A DNA stretch of 64,000 nucleotides, taken from IMG/VR virus record IMGVR_UViG_3300046642_000603, positions 1-64,000 of that record; one strand, given 5' to 3'. This document shows, piece after piece, positions 7,761-60,031 of this stretch (within the stretch, counting starts at the first letter, position 1; the number at the start of each line of letters is the position of its first letter). The notes beneath the pieces are model-generated. The model was not told the DNA's origin and did no database searches. It was given only the letters and a program-made list of their open reading frames with translations. A program made the translations under genes and the position numbers. This DNA is from a virus.

Positions 7761-9028
7761 GCCTTGCTATCACCGCCGAGGTCTGGAAGCACGCCCCCAT
7801 AGGCAAGGGTGACTTGCTGGTGCTCCTGCGTATAGCGGACGCCGCCGGGGAAGAGCACCGGATGATGTGGGAGTCCGTCAAGACGCTCGCCAAGCACACC
7901 CGCATGACCGAGCGCAGCATCTACAACAGCCTGCGCAACCTGGCGCTCCAGGACATCATCGAGACGGTTCCGAAGGAGGCTGCGCCCCCGGAGGCGCGGC
8001 TGTACAAGTCCGTGGTCCGCCGCGTCCGCCCCGTGGAGGAGTGGATCGACCTCAAGACCCCGGAGGAGCGGGAGGCCGCCGAGCGACGCCAGGCGGTGCG
8101 TGACCGGTTCGAGGCCAAGGCGGGAGAGTTCCGCCGGAAGATCCTCGCGCGTGACGGAGCGGTCTGCCGTCACTGCGGGGAGACGGATGAGTCTGTGCTG
8201 GTCTGTGACCACATGATTTCCGTCTACGACGGGGGTACCAACGACCTGGAAAACCTCCAGATCCTGTGCGTCATGTGCAACTCCCGCAAGGGTCGGCACA
8301 GCGAAGTTGGTATGCAAAATTTGCAGGGTCCAAAGCCGGACATAGCCTCCCTGCAAAATCTGCACCCTGAACAGGTTTCATACAACCCCAATAACCAACT
8401 GGAAGTTAGAGATATAGAAGAAACTACGTTTCTTCCACCGCGCCGGTCGGCACGGTCTGATTCCGGCGGAGCCGAGGAGATCCCTTCGAGGCCGGGTGCT
8501 CGTGGCTGGGATGCGGTTGCGGCTCCCCGTCGTGGCGGCCGGAAGAAGACCCGGAAGCAGCAGGCGGAGGAGGCCGCCCTGGCGGAGAAGGAACTCGACC
8601 CGGCGTACGTCGTGGCCCAGGCCCTCGGCGAGGAAGATCCAGGAAGCAGCCCCGCTGGCCGTCTCCCGGCCTCGGACAGCGACCTGGCCCCTCCGGTCCG
8701 GCGACCTCGTGAGAAGCGCTCCAAGAGGCCGTCGGAGGAACTGGCCGAGTTCTTCGGGAAGCGGGCCGAGGAGGTAGGCCACCCGGTACCTGGCGCCACC
8801 AACCTCAGAGCCCTCACCGGACAGTTCGGCCGGTGGATGGCCCAGGGCCTGGAACGGGAGACGATCCGGCAGATGGTCCTGACGTACTGGTCGTCCTCCT
8901 GGAGCCGGTCGGAGAACCATCCGGCCTGGAAGGACTTCCTCGCTGCCCGTGGTCTGCTGACCGAGCGGCTGGGCAAGGCTGAGAACGTGATGGAGAAGCA
9001 CCGGCACGACGAGTCCTACTGGGACTGA
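7757..9028 (+). CDS. Winged-helix/HNH replication initiator-like protein
   Basis: A 423-residue protein, GTG start. Residues ~1-75 form a winged helix (SVKTLAKHTRMTERSIYNSLRNL) like phage replisome organisers. Residues ~125-180 are an HNH domain with two CxxC pairs (CRHCG, CVMCN), the DHMISVYDGG core and NLQILC. An AT-rich hinge follows, with the repeated peptide MQNLQ/LQNLH encoded by two iteron-like DNA repeats. The rest is basic and low complexity, with a final helical domain (LTGQFGRWMAQGLERETIRQMV). It is the first gene of the replication module, right before helicase loader and helicase, which supports initiator function. Whether the HNH part is active or a captured module is open. Confidence 0.75.
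   Translation: MSLAITAEVWKHAPIGKGDLLVLLRIADAAGEEHRMMWESVKTLAKHTRMTERSIYNSLRNLALQDIIETVPKEAAPPEARLYKSVVRRVRPVEEWIDLKTPEEREAAERRQAVRDRFEAKAGEFRRKILARDGAVCRHCGETDESVLVCDHMISVYDGGTNDLENLQILCVMCNSRKGRHSEVGMQNLQGPKPDIASLQNLHPEQVSYNPNNQLEVRDIEETTFLPPRRSARSDSGGAEEIPSRPGARGWDAVAAPRRGGRKKTRKQQAEEAALAEKELDPAYVVAQALGEEDPGSSPAGRLPASDSDLAPPVRRPREKRSKRPSEELAEFFGKRAEEVGHPVPGATNLRALTGQFGRWMAQGLERETIRQMVLTYWSSSWSRSENHPAWKDFLAARGLLTERLGKAENVMEKHRHDESYWD
8312..8432 (+). other. Candidate replication origin: iteron-like repeats plus AT-rich segment
   Basis: Two copies of TGCAAAAT[T/C]TGCA, at 8313-8325 and 8352-8364, lie 39 bp apart inside the initiator-like gene. A stretch of ~55 bases (8377-8432) much richer in A/T than its surroundings follows. 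Iterons plus an unwinding region inside the initiator gene is the arrangement of lambda O. No functional proof in the sequence. Confidence 0.5.
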
Positions 9029-12990: not shown

Positions 12991-13283
12991 AGGCACCCGA
13001 GGGCTACGAGCACCTGGGTGAGGACTTCTGGGCCCGCGTCGAGCCGGACCCGGACACCGACTGCCTCATCTTCCAGTCCACCGCGACGCGGCCGTACTAC
13101 CAGGGCAAGACTCTGCTGTCCTTCCTGACCGGCGGCGACGGCCGACAGAAGCACCGGGCGTGCAGGCGCCGGATGTGCGCCAACCCGGACCACATCCAGG
13201 ACGGGCACTTCGACATGGGGACGCCGTACGCCCGGCGCCCCCGGTCGAGTTCGCAGTTCGCCCGTCAGTACTCGCAGTGCTGA
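12987..13283 (+). CDS. HNH-like small protein, probably partial domain
   Basis: A 98-residue protein with Arg/Cys-rich CRRRMCANPDHIQDG near residues 58-72. This resembles the C-N-P-x-H-I/L segment of HNH_3-type phage endonucleases. The expected downstream HNH half is short or missing, so it may be a remnant or a DNA-binding derivative. It is translationally coupled to the micro-ORF before it and overlaps the SNF2 gene after it. Confidence 0.6.
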   Translation: MKAPEGYEHLGEDFWARVEPDPDTDCLIFQSTATRPYYQGKTLLSFLTGGDGRQKHRACRRRMCANPDHIQDGHFDMGTPYARRPRSSSQFARQYSQC

Positions 13284-14917
13284 CCGTCGACCTCCACCCC
13301 TTCCAGGAGTCTGCGGCCGACAGGATGGTGGAGAGGGGCTGCCTTCTCGTTGCCTACGAGATGGGGCTGGGCAAGACCGTGCTGGCCCTGGCCGCCATCG
13401 AGGAGCTACTGGAGAAGGGGGAGGTCGAGACCGCCGTCATCGTGGTCCCGGCCAACCTCAAGTACCAGTGGGCCAAGTCCATCGCGAAACTCACCGACGT
13501 GCCGACCCGTGTGGTCACGGTGCGCGAGGACGGGCTGAAGCAGGAGATCACCGTCCCGACGGAGGAGTACTGCGTCCTGATCGACGGCGACGCGAAGAAG
13601 CGCGCCGGGCTGTACGCCAAGGTCAAGACGCTCCGGCCGGACTACGTGATCCTCGGCTACGAGAACGTCGTCAACGACTGGAACTTCGTCAGGAGGATCA
13701 AACCGGAGTGCATCGTCCTCGACGAGTGCACCGCGATCAAGACGTTCCGGGCCCAGCGCACCAGGAAGATCAAGCGGCTCACCGCGCCGTACCGCTTCGG
13801 GATGACCGGCACTCCGGTGGAGAACGGGAAGCCCGAGGAACTGTTCTCGATCATGCAGTGGGTCGACGACCAGGTCCTGGGCCGGTTCGACCTGTTCGAC
13901 AAGACGTACATCGTGCGCAACAAGTTCGGCGGGGTGCAGAACTACCGCAACCTGCCGGTGCTGCACGCCAAACTGGCCGAGGTGATGGTCCGCAAGACGC
14001 GGCTGGACGAGGACGTCCGGCCGTACCTGCCCGAGGTGCAGGAGTCGGTCATCCCGGTCGCCCTGGACGCCAAGACGAAGAAGGCATACCAGGCCATCGC
14101 GGGGGACCTGCTCGCCGAGCTGCGGGCGGCCGGGCCGACGATGGGTGACTTCGATCTGTTCGCGCACTACCACGGGGGAGAGGCGGGCAACGAGAACAGC
14201 CAGCAGGGCAAGATCATGTCTCGCATGCAGGCGCTGGACATGCTGCTGAACCACCCGGACCTGATCGTCATGTCCGGGCAGAGTTACGAGGAGAGCGAGG
14301 AGGCCCGGCAGCGGGGCGTGCAGAAGAAGGTGTGGCCGGGCTCGAAGTACGCGTACGAGGTGTGGCAGTCCGGCCTGCTCGATGACGTCACCACGGCCCC
14401 GAAACTGGACGCCGTGGCGGCTGCGGTCGAGGACATCATGGCGGTCCCCGGAAACAAGATCATCGTCTTCTCGGTCAACCCCGACATGCTGGACCTGATC
14501 GGTGACCGGCTGCCGGAGAACTCGTTCGTCACGTACACCGGCCGGATGTCCTCGGCGGCCAAGGCATATGCCGCCCAGCGGTTCGAGACCGACGAACAGT
14601 GTCGGGTGTTCCTGTCCAGCCACGCGGGAGCGTTCGGCACCGACCTGTACATGGCCAACTACCTGATCAACTACGACCTCGCCTGGTCGGCCGGGAAGCA
14701 GGACCAGATCAACGCCCGGCACAACCGAGCGAGCAGCCAGTTCAAGGACATCTACATCCTGAACGCCATCACGTCGGGCACCACCGAGCCACGCAAGCTG
14801 GCGATGCTGGCGCACAAGCGCAGGGTGGGCAGCGCCATCACAGACGGGCGCGGAGCCGACGAGAAGGGCCGGATCGAGAACGACGTCCAGACCCTTACGC
14901 AGTGCCTGGAGGCGTAA
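13277..14917 (+). CDS. SNF2-family DEAD-like helicase/ATPase
   Basis: A 546-residue protein; start GTG 13277 overlaps the previous stop and gives the expected N-terminal Q-like motif LHPFQESAADRM. Helicase motif I is EMGLGKT (~28-34), motif II is VLDECTAIK (~147-155), motif III FGMTGTPVENGKP, and the C-terminal lobe has motifs V/VI (DLYMANYLINYDLAW, QINARHNRASS). Phage SNF2 proteins are thought to help remodel forks or recombination intermediates; substrate unknown. Confidence 0.88.
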   Translation: MLTVDLHPFQESAADRMVERGCLLVAYEMGLGKTVLALAAIEELLEKGEVETAVIVVPANLKYQWAKSIAKLTDVPTRVVTVREDGLKQEITVPTEEYCVLIDGDAKKRAGLYAKVKTLRPDYVILGYENVVNDWNFVRRIKPECIVLDECTAIKTFRAQRTRKIKRLTAPYRFGMTGTPVENGKPEELFSIMQWVDDQVLGRFDLFDKTYIVRNKFGGVQNYRNLPVLHAKLAEVMVRKTRLDEDVRPYLPEVQESVIPVALDAKTKKAYQAIAGDLLAELRAAGPTMGDFDLFAHYHGGEAGNENSQQGKIMSRMQALDMLLNHPDLIVMSGQSYEESEEARQRGVQKKVWPGSKYAYEVWQSGLLDDVTTAPKLDAVAAAVEDIMAVPGNKIIVFSVNPDMLDLIGDRLPENSFVTYTGRMSSAAKAYAAQRFETDEQCRVFLSSHAGAFGTDLYMANYLINYDLAWSAGKQDQINARHNRASSQFKDIYILNAITSGTTEPRKLAMLAHKRRVGSAITDGRGADEKGRIENDVQTLTQCLEA

Positions 14918-14935
14918 CTTCCAGGATCTCACGAG

Positions 14936-15007
14936 GCACGTCGAGTGGTTCTAAACCCGTAATCGCATGGCACCATCAGGGTATGCGAGAAGAACCACTC
15001 GACGTGC
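14936..15007 (+). repeat. 17-bp inverted repeat enclosing a start codon
   Basis: GCACGTCGAGTGGTTCT at 14936-14952 is perfectly complementary to 14991-15007. The 38-base loop contains CCCGTAATC and the ATG of the next small ORF (14983). In RNA the stem would include codons 4-8 of that ORF and could control its translation. Confidence 0.85.
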
Positions 15008-15117
15008 TGCTCCGTGAGGGGCTTGACCACGTCATATGCCCTCCGGAGGAGCAGGAGGACTGGGATCTGACCCCCGTCCGCCTGGCGCTCCGTGGTGCCC
15101 CAGCCGACCGCTGGTGA
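14983..15117 (+). CDS. Small acidic unknown protein
   Basis: A 44-residue frame (starts MREEPLDVLLREGLDH) beginning in the loop of a long inverted repeat. The AGGG upstream is only 1 base from ATG, too close for a normal site, so initiation may be leaderless or depend on the hairpin. No similarity recognised. Confidence 0.45.
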   Translation: MREEPLDVLLREGLDHVICPPEEQEDWDLTPVRLALRGAPADRW

Positions 15118-15127
15118 AGTTGTAAAC

Positions 15128-15173
15128 CGGATTCGGCGAATCCGTTGACAAGGGCATATGCGGAACGTAGAGT
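15128..15173 (+). promoter_or_regulatory. Promoter with upstream palindromic operator
   Basis: TTGACA (15145-15150), 17-base spacer, TAGAGT (15168-15173). A palindrome CGGATTCG-G-CGAATCCG (15128-15144) touches the -35 box, a good place for a regulator. Drives the DUF4258-like gene. Confidence 0.8.
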
Positions 15174-15225
15174 CGTCCTCACGAAGCGTTGATCGAACGA
15201 AGGATCAAACCACGCAGGAGGACGC

Positions 15226-15591
15226 ATGACCACCATCGCGGAAGCCCTCGGCATCTCCTGGGGCAACGGTGCAACGGACGCCCCCGAGTACCGGCTGACC
15301 TACCACGCACAGCAGCAGGCCGCAGCCAAGGGCTGGACCAGCGCGCAGGTGCTGGAGGCCGCGAACCGCCCGCAGCACACCTCCCCTTCCAGCCGGTTCC
15401 CCGGCCAGCAGCGCCACGTCCGAGGCGAGATAGTCGCCGTCGTCGACCCGGCCGACCACCGCGTCATCACCGTCTACCAGGACGTCCGTGAGACCGGTCT
15501 GCGCACCGACCAGACCGACCGCGACGCGAAGCGCTACGCCACCCGCCTGGGTCAGCAGGTCCCGGCCGAGGTCGACGAAGTTACGTACTGA
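15226..15591 (+). CDS. DUF4258-like protein
   Basis: A 121-residue protein behind GGAGG. The core (residues ~22-90) has H-A-x-Q-Q-x-A-x-x-K-G-W, a central arginine-rich strand with RHVRGEIVAVVD, and VITVYQDV, resembling DUF4258 proteins, which share the BrnT/RelE-like fold. No antitoxin partner is recognisable next to it. It has its own strong promoter, so it may act early. Confidence 0.6.
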   Translation: MTTIAEALGISWGNGATDAPEYRLTYHAQQQAAAKGWTSAQVLEAANRPQHTSPSSRFPGQQRHVRGEIVAVVDPADHRVITVYQDVRETGLRTDQTDRDAKRYATRLGQQVPAEVDEVTY

Positions 15592-15609
15592 GAAACACGT
15601 AATCTCGAA

Positions 15610-15638
15610 TGGACAATCTCGAAGACGTAATGTAGAGT
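15610..15638 (+). promoter_or_regulatory. Promoter
   Basis: TGGACA (15610-15615), 17-base spacer containing GAAGACGTAATG, TAGAGT (15633-15638). Another CACGTAATCTC half-site lies just upstream (15597-15606). Drives the gene at 15688 and probably the ssDNA-binding/polymerase run. Confidence 0.72.
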
Positions 15639-15687
15639 CGGACCTGCTCAACCGACCTACTACTCCGTAGAAAGAGAGCCCCGCTCT

Positions 15688-16164
15688 ATGGCTACCGTGC
15701 AGAGACGAGCAACCCAGCGCATCGAGCGCCCCATCTCCCTCAACCAGGCCGCCCCCTGGGAGAAGACCCGCCAGTTCCTGGCCCTGAAGTTCCAGGAGAC
15801 CGAGATCGTCACCCGCAAGAACAAGTTGCGCGACGAGGTCAGCGTCCACGTGGACGCCAACGGCGACATCGACGAGAAGGGCAGCAAGTTCTGGAAGTTG
15901 GACCCGCCCATCGAGGTCAACGGCCAGAAGTTCACCGAGGTCAAGCGTGAGCGCCGCGTCAGCGTGAACCTGGACGAAGAGGCCGTCGAGACCCTGGTCA
16001 ACGCCAAGGGGATCCGCGACCGGGTCTTCAAGCAGGTGACCCAGGAGGTCCTGGACCAGGACGAGTTGTACGTCCTCAACCAGGAAGGCGTCATCACCGA
16101 CGAGGAACTGGACGGACTGTTCACCGAGACCGAGTCCTTCGCGTTCAAGCCCATTCGCGGCTGA
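15688..16164 (+). CDS. Unknown acidic protein
   Basis: A 158-residue soluble protein with alternating charged helices (NLDEEAVETLVNAKGIRDRVFKQVTQEVLDQDELY). It is the first gene after a promoter, upstream of an HTH protein and the putative ssDNA-binding protein. No known domain recognised. Confidence 0.75.
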   Translation: MATVQRRATQRIERPISLNQAAPWEKTRQFLALKFQETEIVTRKNKLRDEVSVHVDANGDIDEKGSKFWKLDPPIEVNGQKFTEVKRERRVSVNLDEEAVETLVNAKGIRDRVFKQVTQEVLDQDELYVLNQEGVITDEELDGLFTETESFAFKPIRG

Positions 16165-16179
16165 TAGGAGACCCACCAC

Positions 16180-16650
16180 ATGAGCACCGTCGCAGACACC
16201 ATCGACCAGTCCTTCGCCGAACTCGGTGAGCAGTTCTACCCCGGCTCGACGCGCCCCCTGGTACGTCACCGCAACCGCCTTAATACCGAGGCCGCCGCGT
16301 CGGCGGCCGAACCCGGAGCATGGGACGCCAAGCCCCGTAAGTACGTCGTGGCCGGAGTCGAGACGGAGTTCTTCACCGTCGGCGACCTCGCCAAGGCGCT
16401 GGGACGGCAGCCCGTGACCATCCGGAAGTGGGAGCGCGAGGGAGTCATTCCCAAGAGCACCTACCAGTCCCCGGGCAAGGACGGAGACGTACGCGGCCGA
16501 CGCCGCCTGTACATCCGCGAGCAGGTCGAGGGCATGGTCCGCATCGCGCACGAGGAAGGCGTCCTCGTGTCCCACCAGAAGCCCATCAAGGGCACCCGCT
16601 TCACCGAGCGCGTCGTCGCCCTCTTCAAGGCCCTGGCGGGCGACGAGTGA
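16180..16650 (+). CDS. MerR/excisionase-like helix-turn-helix protein
   Basis: A 156-residue protein, start ATG behind AGGAG. Residues ~67-110 contain FTVGDLAKALGRQPVTIRKWEREGVIP, a typical MerR/Xis winged-helix segment, followed by a basic RGRRRLYIREQ wing. Such proteins bind specific DNA to regulate transcription or recombination. A CTTAATACC copy lies at residues 34-36, in the N-terminal linker. Confidence 0.75.
   Translation: MSTVADTIDQSFAELGEQFYPGSTRPLVRHRNRLNTEAAASAAEPGAWDAKPRKYVVAGVETEFFTVGDLAKALGRQPVTIRKWEREGVIPKSTYQSPGKDGDVRGRRRLYIREQVEGMVRIAHEEGVLVSHQKPIKGTRFTERVVALFKALAGDE
16279..16287 (+). repeat. CTTAATACC element 7
   Basis: Residues 34-36 of the HTH protein. Confidence 0.9.
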
Positions 16651-16883
16651 GGATCGTCAAGAGCCAGAAGCACCACGTGTCCATGGGGAACTTCGAGTGG
16701 GTGGAGTTCGGCTACGAGGTCGACATCACCACCGACGACTTCCCCAAGGCACGCACCCTCGACGACCTGGACAAGGTCGCCACCGACCAGATCACCAAGG
16801 CCCTCGCGGCCGACATCGAGGAAGCCCGTCTCAACACGGGCGAAGCATCCTCGTACATCCATCTCTACCAGCAGGAGAACTGA
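16647..16883 (+). CDS. Small unknown protein
   Basis: A 78-residue GTG-start protein overlapping the previous stop (GTGA). It contains Leu-Asn-Thr (residues 62-64) written CTC-AAC-ACG, i.e. the peptide without the nucleotide element. This is a useful control showing that the repeated element elsewhere is conserved as DNA. Confidence 0.65.
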   Translation: MRIVKSQKHHVSMGNFEWVEFGYEVDITTDDFPKARTLDDLDKVATDQITKALAADIEEARLNTGEASSYIHLYQQEN

Positions 16884-17699
16884 ATGCCCCGCACCCTGAC
16901 CCGCCGCCGCACCGCCCGCGACACCGAGGCGTACTCCCCGGCCGACGAGCCCGAGGACGAGCAGGGCTACGCGGAGGAAGAGGACGAGGCCCCGGCCCGT
17001 GGCTCCCGCCGAGGCTCGCGCCGCAGCCTTAATACCGAGGAGGCCGACACCTCCCGACGCTCCCGCCGCGCCCCCGCGCGTGACGAGGACGACGACGAGG
17101 ACGACGAGCCCACGCCGAAGGTCGGCGGCCGTGGCTGGGGATCGTACGAGAAGACCAAGCAGGCGTCCTCCGGCTTCCCCGACAACTTCAAGGCGTCCAC
17201 CGAGTCCGTGATCGTGAAGTTCCTGGACGAGGAGCCGTTCCTGGTCTTCCTCCAGCACTGGATCGAGCGCTCCGGCAAGAAGTCATTCACCTGCCTGGAG
17301 AGCAAGTGCCCGCTGTGCGACGACGCGGGTGACAAGCCCAGCCAGCAGGTCTCCTTCAACGTCGTCGACTTCACCGACCCCGAGGACCCGCAGGTCAAGG
17401 TCTGGCAGGTCGGCCCGATGGTCGCGGACATCCTGAAGAACTACGCCAAGGACAAGAAGACGTCGCCGATCAACCGCGACGACCTCTACTTCTCCGTCCG
17501 CAAGGAGACCAAGAACAAGAAGACCAACTACTACATCACGCCGGTCAAGGAGCGTGACCTCCTCGACGACTGGGACATCGAGCCCCTGAGCGAGGACGAC
17601 CTGGAGACGTTCGACGCCAAGGCGTACGACGAGGACATCCTCCAGGTCACCCGGCGCACGGAACTCAAGGTCATCGTCCGCGAGATCCTGAACGACTAG
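16884..17699 (+). CDS. Probable single-stranded DNA-binding protein
   Basis: A 271-residue protein. Residues 1-85 are a disordered acidic/basic tail with a CTTAATACC copy (residues 49-51). The core from ~90 has a zinc-ribbon-like CLESKCPLCDDAGDKP and beta-rich strands (VSFNVVDFTD, VKVWQVGPMV, YYITPVKERDL), as in gp32/T7-type phage SSBs. The gene precedes DNA polymerase, which fits a replication-fork coat protein. The acidic tail lies at the N-terminus rather than the more usual C-terminus. Confidence 0.65.
   Translation: MPRTLTRRRTARDTEAYSPADEPEDEQGYAEEEDEAPARGSRRGSRRSLNTEEADTSRRSRRAPARDEDDDEDDEPTPKVGGRGWGSYEKTKQASSGFPDNFKASTESVIVKFLDEEPFLVFLQHWIERSGKKSFTCLESKCPLCDDAGDKPSQQVSFNVVDFTDPEDPQVKVWQVGPMVADILKNYAKDKKTSPINRDDLYFSVRKETKNKKTNYYITPVKERDLLDDWDIEPLSEDDLETFDAKAYDEDILQVTRRTELKVIVREILND
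17028..17036 (+). repeat. CTTAATACC element 8
   Basis: Residues 49-51, disordered tail of the ssDNA-binding-like protein. Confidence 0.9.
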
Positions 17700-17710
17700 C
17701 AGCCTCCGAC

Positions 17711-17743
17711 GGGGAGGCTCCAGCACAGCGCTGGGGCCTCCCC
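17711..17743 (+). terminator. Intrinsic terminator/attenuator
   Basis: 14-bp stem (17711-17724 with 17730-17743, GGGGAGGCTCCAGC) with one wobble pair and a 5-base loop, between the ssDNA-binding-like gene and the polymerase gene. No strong T-run follows, so read-through is likely. Confidence 0.6.
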
Positions 17744-17778
17744 CTCAGCTTCCCCATCCACCACCACCGGAGCCCGCT

Positions 17779-19758
17779 GTGAAGATCCGCAACTCCGTCA
17801 TCCTCACCCCCGACCGACTTAATACCGTGGTCGAGCGCTTCATGGAGCGTCCGGCCTTCGCATTCGACATCGAGACCTTCGGCCCCAACCGAGGCGTCCC
17901 GACGCAGAACGTCGCCAACTGGCTCTCCCTGGCCTCCGACGGCATGGCCTACGCCATCCCCTTCGGGCACCCCAACGGCGACGTCCTGATCAGCAAGGCC
18001 ACCCGCAAGAAGAACCGGCTCACCAACAAGTTCGACGCCATCCCGGCCGTCTACGACGCCCCGCCGGAGCAGATGCTCCCGAGCGAGGTCTTCTCCATCC
18101 TCCGGCCGCTGTTCTTCGCCGAAGACAAGATCAAGATCGCGCATAACGCCACGTTCGACCTGATCTCCACGGCGAAGTACTGGGGCGAGATCTGCCCGCC
18201 GGAGTACAGCGACACCATCGTCCTTCAGTGGCTCCTCGACGAGAACATGAAGCAAAAGGGCCTGAAGGAGTTGATCAAGCGCTACTACAAGGTCGACTAC
18301 GACACCGAGAACGTCGGCAAGTGCGTCGAGGCCCACCCCTTCTCGAAGGTCGCCCACTACGCGTACATGGACTCCAAGTACACGTGGCTGCTCTGGAAGC
18401 GCTACCAGAACCAGATCAAGGAGCAGAACCTCACCCACGTCCGGCGCCTGGAGGAAGACGTCCTGGGGGTGCTGCTCGACATGGGCATCACCGGAGCACC
18501 GGTCGACGAAGCCGCGATGCGTGAGCTGGTACAGGACATGTCCGCCCGGCTCGTCGACATCGAGGCCGACATCTACCGGGCCGCAGGCAAGCAGTTCAAC
18601 CTGAACGCCCCGGCGCAGAAGGCCGAGGTGCTGTACGCCCCCAAGAGCGACGGCGGCCAGGGCCTCAAGCCGATGAAGCCCACCGACGGCGGCAAGAAGA
18701 AGCGCGACGCGGGCCAGACGCTGGAGTGGAAGGACTTCAGCACCGACTCCGACAGCCTGGAGAAGCACCCCAACAACCCGGTCGTCAAGAAGATGCTGGA
18801 GTACGCGGAAGTCAGCAAACTGCTCGACTACCCCATCGCGTACCTCGGTGTCGAGGACGACCCGAAGAAGCCGTGCCGGATCTTCAACGGCAGGATCCAC
18901 GCCGACTTCGTCCAGTACGGGACGGTGACCGGCCGGTTCTCCTGCCGCGAACCCAACCTCCAGAACATCCCCCGGCCCGACACCGACCTCGGCAAGCGGA
19001 TCCGTGGACTGTTCGTCGCACCGCCCGGCTACAAGCTGGTCGTCGCGGACTACGGGCAGATCGAACTCGTCGTGCTCGCGCACTTCATCGGCCGTGGCGA
19101 CCTCTACAAGGGGTTCCACAACGGCGTCGACCCGCACTCGGCGACGGCTGCCGCGCTGATGGGTGTGGACCCGCAGGAGTTCATGCGGCGGGTCAAGGAA
19201 GGCGACCGCACCTGCATCGACTTCCGCCAGGTCGCCAAGGGCATCAACTTCGCCGTCGTGTACGGCGCGGGCCCGGACAAGGTCGCCTCGATGGCAGGCA
19301 TCTCCGTCAAGGACGCCAAGCGGTTCATGGAGATGCACCAGAAGATGTTCCCGGAGATCTACCGCTTCAAGGAAGAAGTCATCCGAGTGTGCCGGTCGCG
19401 TCGGCCCGCACACATCCGCACCCTGCTCGGCCGCAAGCGGCGCCTGCCGCTCATCCTCAGCCAGAACAACGGCCTGCGGATGGGAGCCGAGCGCCAGGCG
19501 GTGAACTCCCTCATCCAGGGATCCGCCGCCGACCTGATCAAACTGGCCATGATCCGGCTGAACAGCGCACTGCCGGACGAAATGCGCCTGATCCTCTCCG
19601 TGCACGACGAACTCGTGACGCTCGCGCCGGAGGACCGGGCCGAGGAATGCGCCGACCTGGTTCGGGAAGCCATGCTCGGCGAAGGAATCCAGAAACTCCT
19701 GCGCGTCCCACTCTCGTCGGACGTGAAGATCGTGGACCGCTGGTCGGAGGCAAAGTAA
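17779..19758 (+). CDS. polA: DNA polymerase I (family A)
   Basis: A 659-residue GTG-start protein. The N-terminal 3'-5' exonuclease shows FAFDIETFG (~28-36), AHNATFDL and YMDSKYTWLL. The polymerase part has VTGRFSCREPNLQNIPRP, motif A VVADYGQIELV (~420-430), motif B RQVAKGINFAVVYGAG and motif C SVHDELV (~605-611). It lacks a 5'-3' exonuclease domain, as is common in phages. The catalytic Asp in motifs A and C and the exonuclease acidic residues are present, so it should be active and proofreading. A CTTAATACC copy encodes residues 14-16, before the first domain. Confidence 0.96.
   Translation: MKIRNSVILTPDRLNTVVERFMERPAFAFDIETFGPNRGVPTQNVANWLSLASDGMAYAIPFGHPNGDVLISKATRKKNRLTNKFDAIPAVYDAPPEQMLPSEVFSILRPLFFAEDKIKIAHNATFDLISTAKYWGEICPPEYSDTIVLQWLLDENMKQKGLKELIKRYYKVDYDTENVGKCVEAHPFSKVAHYAYMDSKYTWLLWKRYQNQIKEQNLTHVRRLEEDVLGVLLDMGITGAPVDEAAMRELVQDMSARLVDIEADIYRAAGKQFNLNAPAQKAEVLYAPKSDGGQGLKPMKPTDGGKKKRDAGQTLEWKDFSTDSDSLEKHPNNPVVKKMLEYAEVSKLLDYPIAYLGVEDDPKKPCRIFNGRIHADFVQYGTVTGRFSCREPNLQNIPRPDTDLGKRIRGLFVAPPGYKLVVADYGQIELVVLAHFIGRGDLYKGFHNGVDPHSATAAALMGVDPQEFMRRVKEGDRTCIDFRQVAKGINFAVVYGAGPDKVASMAGISVKDAKRFMEMHQKMFPEIYRFKEEVIRVCRSRRPAHIRTLLGRKRRLPLILSQNNGLRMGAERQAVNSLIQGSAADLIKLAMIRLNSALPDEMRLILSVHDELVTLAPEDRAEECADLVREAMLGEGIQKLLRVPLSSDVKIVDRWSEAK
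17818..17826 (+). repeat. CTTAATACC element 9
   Basis: Residues 14-16 of DNA polymerase. Confidence 0.9.
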
Positions 19759-33135: not shown

Positions 33136-33142
33136 ATAACTC

Positions 33143-33201
33143 CCACCAAGCAGTCAGATCCGTATAAGATCATGACATGACTACTACTGACTGCTTGGTG
33201 G
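33143..33201 (+). repeat. 15-bp inverted repeat enclosing the HNH gene start
   Basis: CCACCAAGCAGTCAG (33143-33157) is perfectly complementary to 33187-33201. The 29-base loop contains TATAAG (33163-33168) and the ATG at 33177; the right arm encodes codons 4-8. Same arrangement as at 14936-15007. Confidence 0.85.
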
Positions 33202-33728
33202 ACGACTGCAAGGTGCCCGTGAAGGCAAAGGGTTACTGTGGCCCGCATTACCATAGATTTGTTCGTTACGGCGATCCCCTTGTAGTTAAAGGACCCTCTA
33301 GGACGAAGTTTGTCCCGGATAAGTGCTACGTGGAGGATTGCGAGGCCGATAGCCTCAGTCTCGGCCTGTGCAACAAGCACTACATGCGCTACAGGCGGTA
33401 CGGAACCACGGGTCTGCCCCAGCGGGAACGCAAGAAGAAGGCTAAGTCGGGGAAGTACACGTACTTGTGGCTCCCGGAGCACCCTAACGCCTATGCAAAT
33501 GGCTACGTGGCAGAGCATGTCGTCGTAATGTCCAACCATCTCGGACGCCCCCTTAGAAAGGGGGAGAACGTCCACCACAAGAACGGCATCCCGACCGACA
33601 ACCGGATAGAAAACCTGGAACTCTGGGTCTCTCGGCAACCTCACGGTCAGCGTCCCGCCGATCTAGTCGCGTGGGCTAAAGAGATCCTTGAACTGTACGC
33701 GGAAGAGGTCGAGGAGGACCTGTGCTGA
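33177..33728 (+). CDS. HNH homing-type endonuclease
   Basis: A 183-residue protein. Two zinc-knuckle-like units ([22 protein letters not shown] and [22 protein letters not shown] share C-x4-C...C-x2-H) precede an HNH_3 core ([35 protein letters not shown]). Codon use is visibly more A/T-rich than in the neighbours and the CTTAATACC element is absent, both signs of recent arrival. There is no ribosome-binding site; start ATG lies ~9 bases after TATAAG, which could give a leaderless transcript. Confidence 0.88.
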
Positions 33729-59344: not shown

Positions 59345-60031
59345 ATGGGACTGACCAAGCCTATCCAGAGCTGGCGCGAGAGTCGCGCGAGCAAGACTGA
59401 GACAGACCCTGTCTCGCCCCCGTCTCAGCCGTTCAACGGCCTGCACGCGACCGGTCTGGTCATCGGGTTCACTCTGATCCTGGTGGCGCTGGCGTTCGTG
59501 GCGCTGGTCGGTATGCGGGTGAGCTGGGTTCCCCTTCGAGACACCGCAGACGGCATCGGCCTGCACGAGGTCAGGGAGTACTACCCCCTGGTCATCGACG
59601 GGCTGGACGGTCTGGGTGTGGTCGCCTCGCTGGCGCTGGTCGGCTCCCCGGGATACCGGTGGGCGATCGGCACGGTGGTCGGTCTCACCGCTGTCTCACT
59701 CGTTCTCAACGTCGCCCACGGCTCTGCGTACGCGCATGTGACGGGGCAGTCCGCGAAGACGACGTGGGGGCACGTGATCCTGGCCTCGGCCGCTCCGACG
59801 ATCTGCATCGCGCTGGGTACGCACCTGGCCGCGCTGACGTTTCACCGGCTGGCCGGGGTGCTGAGACAGCGGCGAGACAGCAGTGAGGTCACCCTGGTCA
59901 CGGCCCGGGAGCTGGCCAAGATCCTTGAGGTGAGCCCGAGCACGATCAGCACGTGGGTCGACCGGGGCAAGCTCACCCCTGTCTCGAAGGACCCCGACGG
60001 CCGCAACCTGTTCAACCCTGCATCTCTGTGA
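59345..60031 (+). CDS. DUF2637-like membrane protein fused to a MerR-type HTH
   Basis: A 228-residue protein. Four hydrophobic helices (~32-55, ~82-101, ~103-123, ~138-162) resemble DUF2637 (Spd-like) proteins of Streptomyces plasmids. The last ~50 residues are a helix-turn-helix: VTARELAKILEVSPSTISTW then VDRGKLTPVSKDPDGR. A membrane-anchored DNA-binding protein could tether DNA or regulate in response to the membrane state. Probably plasmid- or host-derived. Confidence 0.75.
   Translation: MGLTKPIQSWRESRASKTETDPVSPPSQPFNGLHATGLVIGFTLILVALAFVALVGMRVSWVPLRDTADGIGLHEVREYYPLVIDGLDGLGVVASLALVGSPGYRWAIGTVVGLTAVSLVLNVAHGSAYAHVTGQSAKTTWGHVILASAAPTICIALGTHLAALTFHRLAGVLRQRRDSSEVTLVTARELAKILEVSPSTISTWVDRGKLTPVSKDPDGRNLFNPASL

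Follow-up and report, generated by a model that had tools for sequence, protein, structure and literature searches.

We propose, with a probability of about 60%, that the 44-residue gene behind the SNF2-type helicase of this phage is governed by a two-transcript switch, in which the read-through mRNA would be silent and a leaderless mRNA started within the loop of an inverted repeat would be translated. Messages reading through from the helicase operon would hold both arms of the repeat and fold into a stem of 17 bp or longer, which would confine the start codon to a structured loop that offers no ribosome-binding site, so that the 44-aa protein would not be made. A promoter in the loop, with an extended -10 element (TGNSANYAT), would start transcription at the A of the start codon; lacking the left arm, this leaderless message could not form the stem and would be translated in the leaderless manner that is widespread among actinobacteria. 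Because the read-through RNA would be silent and the leaderless RNA translated, the small gene would be independent of helicase transcription and would be expressed solely through use of the loop promoter. A transcript starting downstream of the left arm, regarded in the original prediction as a refutation, would be half of this mechanism.

A perfect inverted repeat around the start codon

The phage record is 75.9 kb long, and the window analysed here covers its first 64 kb. On the 5' side of the inverted repeat lies a replication operon with a DnaB-type helicase, further ORFs and, as the gene directly upstream, an SNF2-type DNA helicase (13160 to 14917, plus strand; Pfam SNF2-rel_dom and Helicase_C) whose TAA stop codon occupies 14915 to 14917. 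As originally predicted, a perfect 17-bp inverted repeat follows, with the left arm GCACGTCGAGTGGTTCT at 14936 to 14952 and the right arm AGAACCACTCGACGTGC at 14991 to 15007 (both on the plus strand) complementary in 17 of 17 bp and separated by a 38-nt loop. The left arm, which is non-coding, is supported by the repeat, by pairing and by column conservation, and the right arm by the repeat and by pairing conservation. The loop contains CCCGTAATC and encloses the ATG at 14983, which opens the 44-aa ORF of a small acidic protein (14983 to 15117, plus strand) and would at the same time provide the +1 of the leaderless mRNA. The prediction that the stem pairs with codons 4-8 is correct, since the right arm covers these five codons together with one flanking base on each side, the third of codon 3 and the first of codon 9. 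The claim that a ribosome-binding site is missing also stands: in each of 24 distinct versions of the element the longest match to the anti-Shine-Dalgarno complement between -22 and -5 is 3 nt.

The arm has no other copy within 3 mismatches in the window. The 75.9-kb record contains only 4 perfect inverted repeats with arms of 15 bp or more and loops of 12-90 nt, and 60 first-order Markov simulations produced none; the repeat is therefore improbable by chance. The RNA from 14918 to 15060 folds with a z-score of -5.4, and weaker pairing is predicted to extend outward from the stem, between about 14918-14931 and 15008-15019. The 18-nt spacer after the helicase stop (14918 to 14935, plus strand) has 12 of 18 columns invariant and contributes to this predicted extension with CUUY/GAGG, GGA/UCC and CA/UG, in which there are no double changes. 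A search of Rfam gave no match above the gathering score, only chance matches with E-values of 0.14 and 0.64. An intrinsic terminator was considered and rejected, as the loop measures 38 nt, a T run is lacking and no terminator is called on the plus strand at the stem.

By sequence and by calculation, RNA initiated upstream carries a stable helix over its translation start region. Opening positions -18 to +18 costs 22.8-34.5 kcal/mol in the 24 read-through RNAs (24/24), compared to 1.7-5.1 kcal/mol in the leaderless RNAs. The corresponding cost is 9.6-23.8 kcal/mol at 10 other starts in the window and has a median of 19.2 kcal/mol at 60 random ATGs of this GC-rich DNA; because these random ATGs reach 33.3 kcal/mol, the opening cost alone is not decisive.

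Conservation of the element

The element is shared by a family of soil-bacterial viruses. Beyond the window it is present in 37 IMG/VR contigs, each time with the same helicase on its 5' side. A helicase search yielded 54 loci, two of which (L040 and L052) end within the helicase and were left out; of the remaining 52, 37 carry the element and 15 do not. The 37 loci share, without gaps, the order of helicase stop, 18 nt, left arm, loop and ATG at equal distance. A search with the DNA pattern (arm and start) led to 37 contigs and a search with the small protein to 39, two of which hold a divergent form without the repeat. The 60 pattern instances were reduced to 24 distinct versions over 130 nt, all included in the alignment; a comparison over 108 nt gives 22.

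Over these 24 versions, 402 of the 408 cells of the 17 stem pairs are paired, and three pairs show changes in both arms, namely from G-C to C-G (3 rows), from A-U to G-C and from G-C to A-U. None of 500 stem shuffles equalled the observed pairing, and slid controls were 35-53% paired. With a tree-aware null, in which column changes were moved to random branches, the mean was 381.5 paired cells and none of 3000 runs reached 402, while 36 of 3000 reached three double-changed pairs. At 14937/15006 the window, L004 and L015 have C-G, where the other versions have G-C. Since the helicase tree separates L015 from the window and L004, this swap would represent two events per side, unless a short stretch has recombined. 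Exceptions to pairing are confined to 14949/14994 (broken in 4 of 24 rows) and 14951/14992 (2 of 24); where only one side has changed, a G-U pair mostly preserves the pairing of the RNA.

We found no coding content in the left arm, and yet 13 of its 17 columns are invariant, compared to 8 among 117 fourfold sites of the adjacent helicase gene (p about 1e-9). The retention of the stem with double changes, together with conservation of a non-coding arm beyond the neutral level, strongly indicates that the inverted repeat is an RNA structure under selection. The original prediction had suggested that translation might depend on RNA folding; the folding is upheld by the compensatory changes and the selection on the non-coding arm, while the effect on translation keeps its conditional form as part of the proposed switch. 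The other possibility named there, a protein on the stem, is not required by any of the observations.

The loop and a putative promoter

Eight of the 30 loop columns before the ATG are invariant (p 0.005), namely A14953, A14954, C14966, T14968, G14969, A14972, A14975 and T14976. Some of them belong to an inner helix, the left side of which (14964 to 14969, plus strand) is paired to the region of the start codon: CRUG against the AUG is kept, the outer pairs are variable, and there are no double changes. C14966, T14968 and G14969 pair with the AUG and the preceding base, whereas A14972, A14975 and T14976 are unpaired in this helix.

The same stretch holds a putative extended -10 element, TGG-CACCAT (14968 to 14976, plus strand; consensus TGN-SANYAT), the hexamer of which starts 12 nt before the ATG. 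T14968, G14969, A14972, A14975 and T14976 are invariant in 24 of 24 versions. Read as a promoter with its +1 at the A of the ATG, the TG would lie at -15/-14, A14972 at -11, A14975 at -8 and T14976 at -7. For the loop TG and C14966, pairing to the AUG is an equally good explanation; A14972, A14975 and T14976 have no such pairing explanation but fall at -11, -8 and -7 of the putative promoter. The pattern TGNYANNATN6ATG occurs once in the window, with 0.11 occurrences expected. Compared to the TANNNT consensus, the position, A2 and T6 of the hexamer agree in 24 of 24 versions and the first T in none: 22 versions have C at -12 and two have G, where TANNNT wants T. A -35 consensus is not evident, TTSTAA at 16 nt being weak, and a consensus promoter scan did not call the loop promoter. 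The stem, its compensatory conservation, the lack of a Shine-Dalgarno sequence and a loop motif at leaderless spacing can be read directly from the sequence. From the motif we infer that the loop carries an extended -10-like element that would place the transcription start on the A of the start codon and produce a leaderless mRNA. In bacteria, including S. coelicolor, the TA signals of leaderless genes peak with a hexamer beginning some 12 nt ahead of the start codon (PMC3160421), and about 22% of the mRNAs of S. avermitilis are leaderless (PMC8780764).

The small gene and its surroundings

The small gene is real, as judged from its sequence: third-position changes dominate (12, 6 and 26 changes at the three codon positions, codons 9-37), and a homologue follows the helicase in L117 and L118. 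In these two loci, an ORF 55% identical to the 44-aa protein (1165-1300 in L117, 1384-1519 in L118) starts 12 nt past the helicase stop, with GGGGG before the ATG, no such repeat and no -10. They offer a natural contrast, with a ribosome-binding site and no hairpin, to the clade of the window, with a hairpin spacer and no Shine-Dalgarno sequence. At 15001 to 15033, where the right arm can be set against codons 13-17, the substitution D16H in the window, L004 and L015 accompanies the arm change.

A comparison of the ORF with sequenced phages gave only chance matches (E-values of 4 and worse), the listed ones of which fall in genes for minor tail or hypothetical proteins, and no confirmed occurrence was obtained in a genome collection of 84,980 species. 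The protein had no matches in Pfam, PHROGs or PADLOC and two chance matches in the PDB (E-values of 0.54 and 0.55). Its AlphaFold model consists of two helices, with a mean pLDDT of 80 and a pTM of 0.37.

The isolated phages closest by SNF2-type helicase are Streptomyces phages, such as BRock (40% identity), and relatives occur in two bacterial genomes, of Terracoccus (53%) and Streptomyces (47%); a host among the actinobacteria is therefore likely. No nucleotide relatives of 14300-15700 were found in INPHARED. The plus strand has no terminator-like sites from 13344 to 18000, which, like the operon layout, would permit read-through from the helicase. The phage has no clear sigma factor, a point against the loop promoter: PF04542 had no match and PF08281 a sub-threshold match only (59903-59971). 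Downstream of the small ORF, 15127-15143 and 15145-15173 contain a strong sigma-70-like promoter (TTGACA-17-TAGAGT) of a 121-aa DUF4258-like gene, with a dyad, CGGATT-N5-AATCCG, adjoining the 5' side of the -35; in relatives the sequence of the dyad varies and its symmetry is often retained. A second promoter resembling this one is located at 15610-15638.

A second hairpin at an HNH endonuclease gene

A second of the record's four perfect repeats with arms of 15 bp or more, at 33143-33201, likewise encloses a start codon (ATG at 33177); the remaining two are terminator-like by sequence. Its left arm (33143 to 33157) and right arm (33187 to 33201, inside the HNH ORF), both identified from the repeat on the plus strand, form a perfect 15-bp stem around a 29-nt loop. 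The layout of stem and start matches that of the first stem, the sequence is unrelated, and the element is represented by a single copy. The loop contains TAAGAT (33165 to 33170, plus strand), a -10-like hexamer that fits TANNNT and lies 12 nt before the ATG. The gene encodes an HNH endonuclease of 183 aa (33177 to 33728, plus strand; Pfam HNH_3), and with its own hairpin leader it spans 33136-33728, the probable GTG start of the next gene overlapping its stop.

The HNH gene and its leader are probably an insertion that separates a 584-aa ORF from the gene after it. The gene is absent from this site in all six loci listed, and in L154, L156 and L160 the stop of the upstream gene, TTCTAA, directly adjoins the next gene, which makes the insertion probable; as the upstream genes of these three loci and of the window are unlike at the DNA level, it falls short of proof. 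HNH homologues with 41-70% identity over the matched part were found in 25 loci. Upstream of nine of them, several with approximate starts, there is no equivalent perfect stem. In L127, at about 540-575, the start of an HNH homologue lies at the edge of a AAGATGGCT-N8-AGCCATCTT hairpin. Elsewhere in the window, a near-perfect repeat, TGCAAAATTTGCAGGG / CCCTGCAAAATCTGCA (8313-8364), is situated immediately after an HNH domain match (8165-8296).

We scanned 1,114,256 bases of the collected loci, overlapping loci included, for perfect stems of at least 12 bp around a start together with a -10-like hexamer. Besides members of this family, the scan picked up the HNH gene and one antisense match on the family's own element (minus strand of L018), and nothing else; two family members, L019 and L022, were missed by the hexamer pattern because of their G at -12. 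A candidate in a distant phage (L053, 2253-2323), in which 22 bp pair perfectly around a 27-nt loop, was rejected as a further case, as it sits in the coding region of a minus-strand gene. We tentatively consider, at odds clearly below even, that the 44-aa gene and the HNH gene exemplify a portable leaderless switch of actinobacterial phages. Newcomer genes behind an operon stop codon would bring an arm pairing with their own first codons and a loop -10 starting RNA at the AUG, and would for this reason be hidden from the operon message and read only from leaderless RNA.

Alternative explanations

Could the stem serve a different purpose? A site for RNase III or another nuclease, at which the long duplex is cut and helicase mRNA separated from the downstream genes, would agree with a 17-bp duplex extended by inner and outer pairing, tolerant of G-U and placed right after the helicase stop, and T7-like processing stems are similar. 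We regard this explanation as unlikely, since it does not account for the invariant A..AT at leaderless -10 spacing, the missing Shine-Dalgarno sequence or the match of the stem with a start codon; such processing could moreover coexist with the two-transcript switch. To about the same degree we doubt that the element is bound by a protein, either a repressor or activator on the RNA stem-loop, or one recognizing the arms as inverted DNA half-sites around a promoter. The arms do lie at -47 to -31 and +9 to +25 of the putative start, and the conserved apical CANYAUC could serve as a binding loop. On the other hand, the 14-nt half-site has no other copy with up to 1 mismatch in the 75.9-kb record and 2 within 2 mismatches, one-sided changes mostly keep a G-U pairing of the RNA that a DNA dyad does not require, and the second element shares the layout with an unrelated sequence.

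More doubtful still is an RNA switch on a single transcript, driven by the ribosome or a ligand, in which translation of the left arm, or a helix between the right arm and codons 13-17, opens the start codon. The downstream pairing GACGUCC/GGACGUC is available for it, the whole alternative being paired in 94.1% of cells with 2 double-changed pairs, but this pairing is partly broken in the window and mostly so in L031, and GACGTC is self-complementary. A +1 frame is also open between the helicase stop and a TAA located at the edge of the loop. As a helicase extension (NFQD..VEWF), this frame was rejected: it is not coding-like, its changes are not at third positions and its variable columns number 3, 4 and 3 by codon position. 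A conserved start codon for a leader peptide is likewise lacking, the candidate ATG/ACG at 14931 being ACC in 2 versions. Finally, template switching can perfect quasi-palindromes, and the repeat might be a functionless inverted duplication made and kept perfect in this way. We consider such a by-product very improbable in view of the conserved non-coding columns flanking the left arm and in the loop, and of the persistence of the element in 37 contigs of clearly diverged phages.

Comparison with known systems

The proposed two-transcript switch resembles the silencing of late genes in read-through messages described for the T4 genes e, soc, 49 and I-TevI, and also for I-TevII/III, segB and Aeh1 mobE (PMC3014915, PMC2988022). 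A long upstream-initiated RNA there holds the start region in a helix, a promoter in or beside the helix gives RNA without the 5' strand, and the same layout recurs at homing endonuclease genes. In the T4 cases the Shine-Dalgarno sequence and/or the AUG is sequestered and the promoters are T4 late promoters (PMC3014915, PMC2988022), whereas here a Shine-Dalgarno sequence is lacking and a leaderless start is predicted. The present motif is moreover host-type and -10-like, in a GC-rich phage without homology to T4. Because a sequestered Shine-Dalgarno sequence is not found here, the element would work like the T4 cases without being a member by descent.

For sigG of B. subtilis, it is proposed that a stem of 20+ bp blocks read-through translation and that RNA from the gene's own promoter cannot form it; sigG differs in being a cellular gene with a ribosome-binding site and a 5' leader (PMC5942855). 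C.PvuII has a second, regulated promoter giving a leaderless mRNA, with the upstream-started mRNA poorly translated, as we propose here. Its early message is, however, limited by a weak ribosome-binding site instead of a start-spanning stem, and the hairpins described belong to the next gene and have no clear effect (PMC2997769). Leaderless genes of actinobacteria share a -10 hexamer about 12 nt before the start, the lack of a Shine-Dalgarno sequence and the AUG, but have TANNNT, compared to CANYAT (GANYAT in two versions) preceded by TGN in our element (PMC3160421, PMC3898074, PMC8780764). In the literature, which was covered in part, we did not find any actinophage for which a promoter-in-hairpin switch giving leaderless RNA is described. 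By analogy, the element may be viewed as a T4-like and sigG-like switch with a leaderless twist, in which promoter activity, silence of the read-through message and timing are deduced from sequence features.

If this interpretation is true, phages of GC-rich bacteria possess an equivalent of the way in which T4 hides genes from read-through, one that does without a Shine-Dalgarno sequence: the stem would stop internal initiation, and the loop promoter would yield the leaderless message. The element would then constitute a natural system in which leaderless and internal initiation are separated within one sequence, and it would show how newly inserted phage genes, homing endonucleases included, get insulated from their neighbours.
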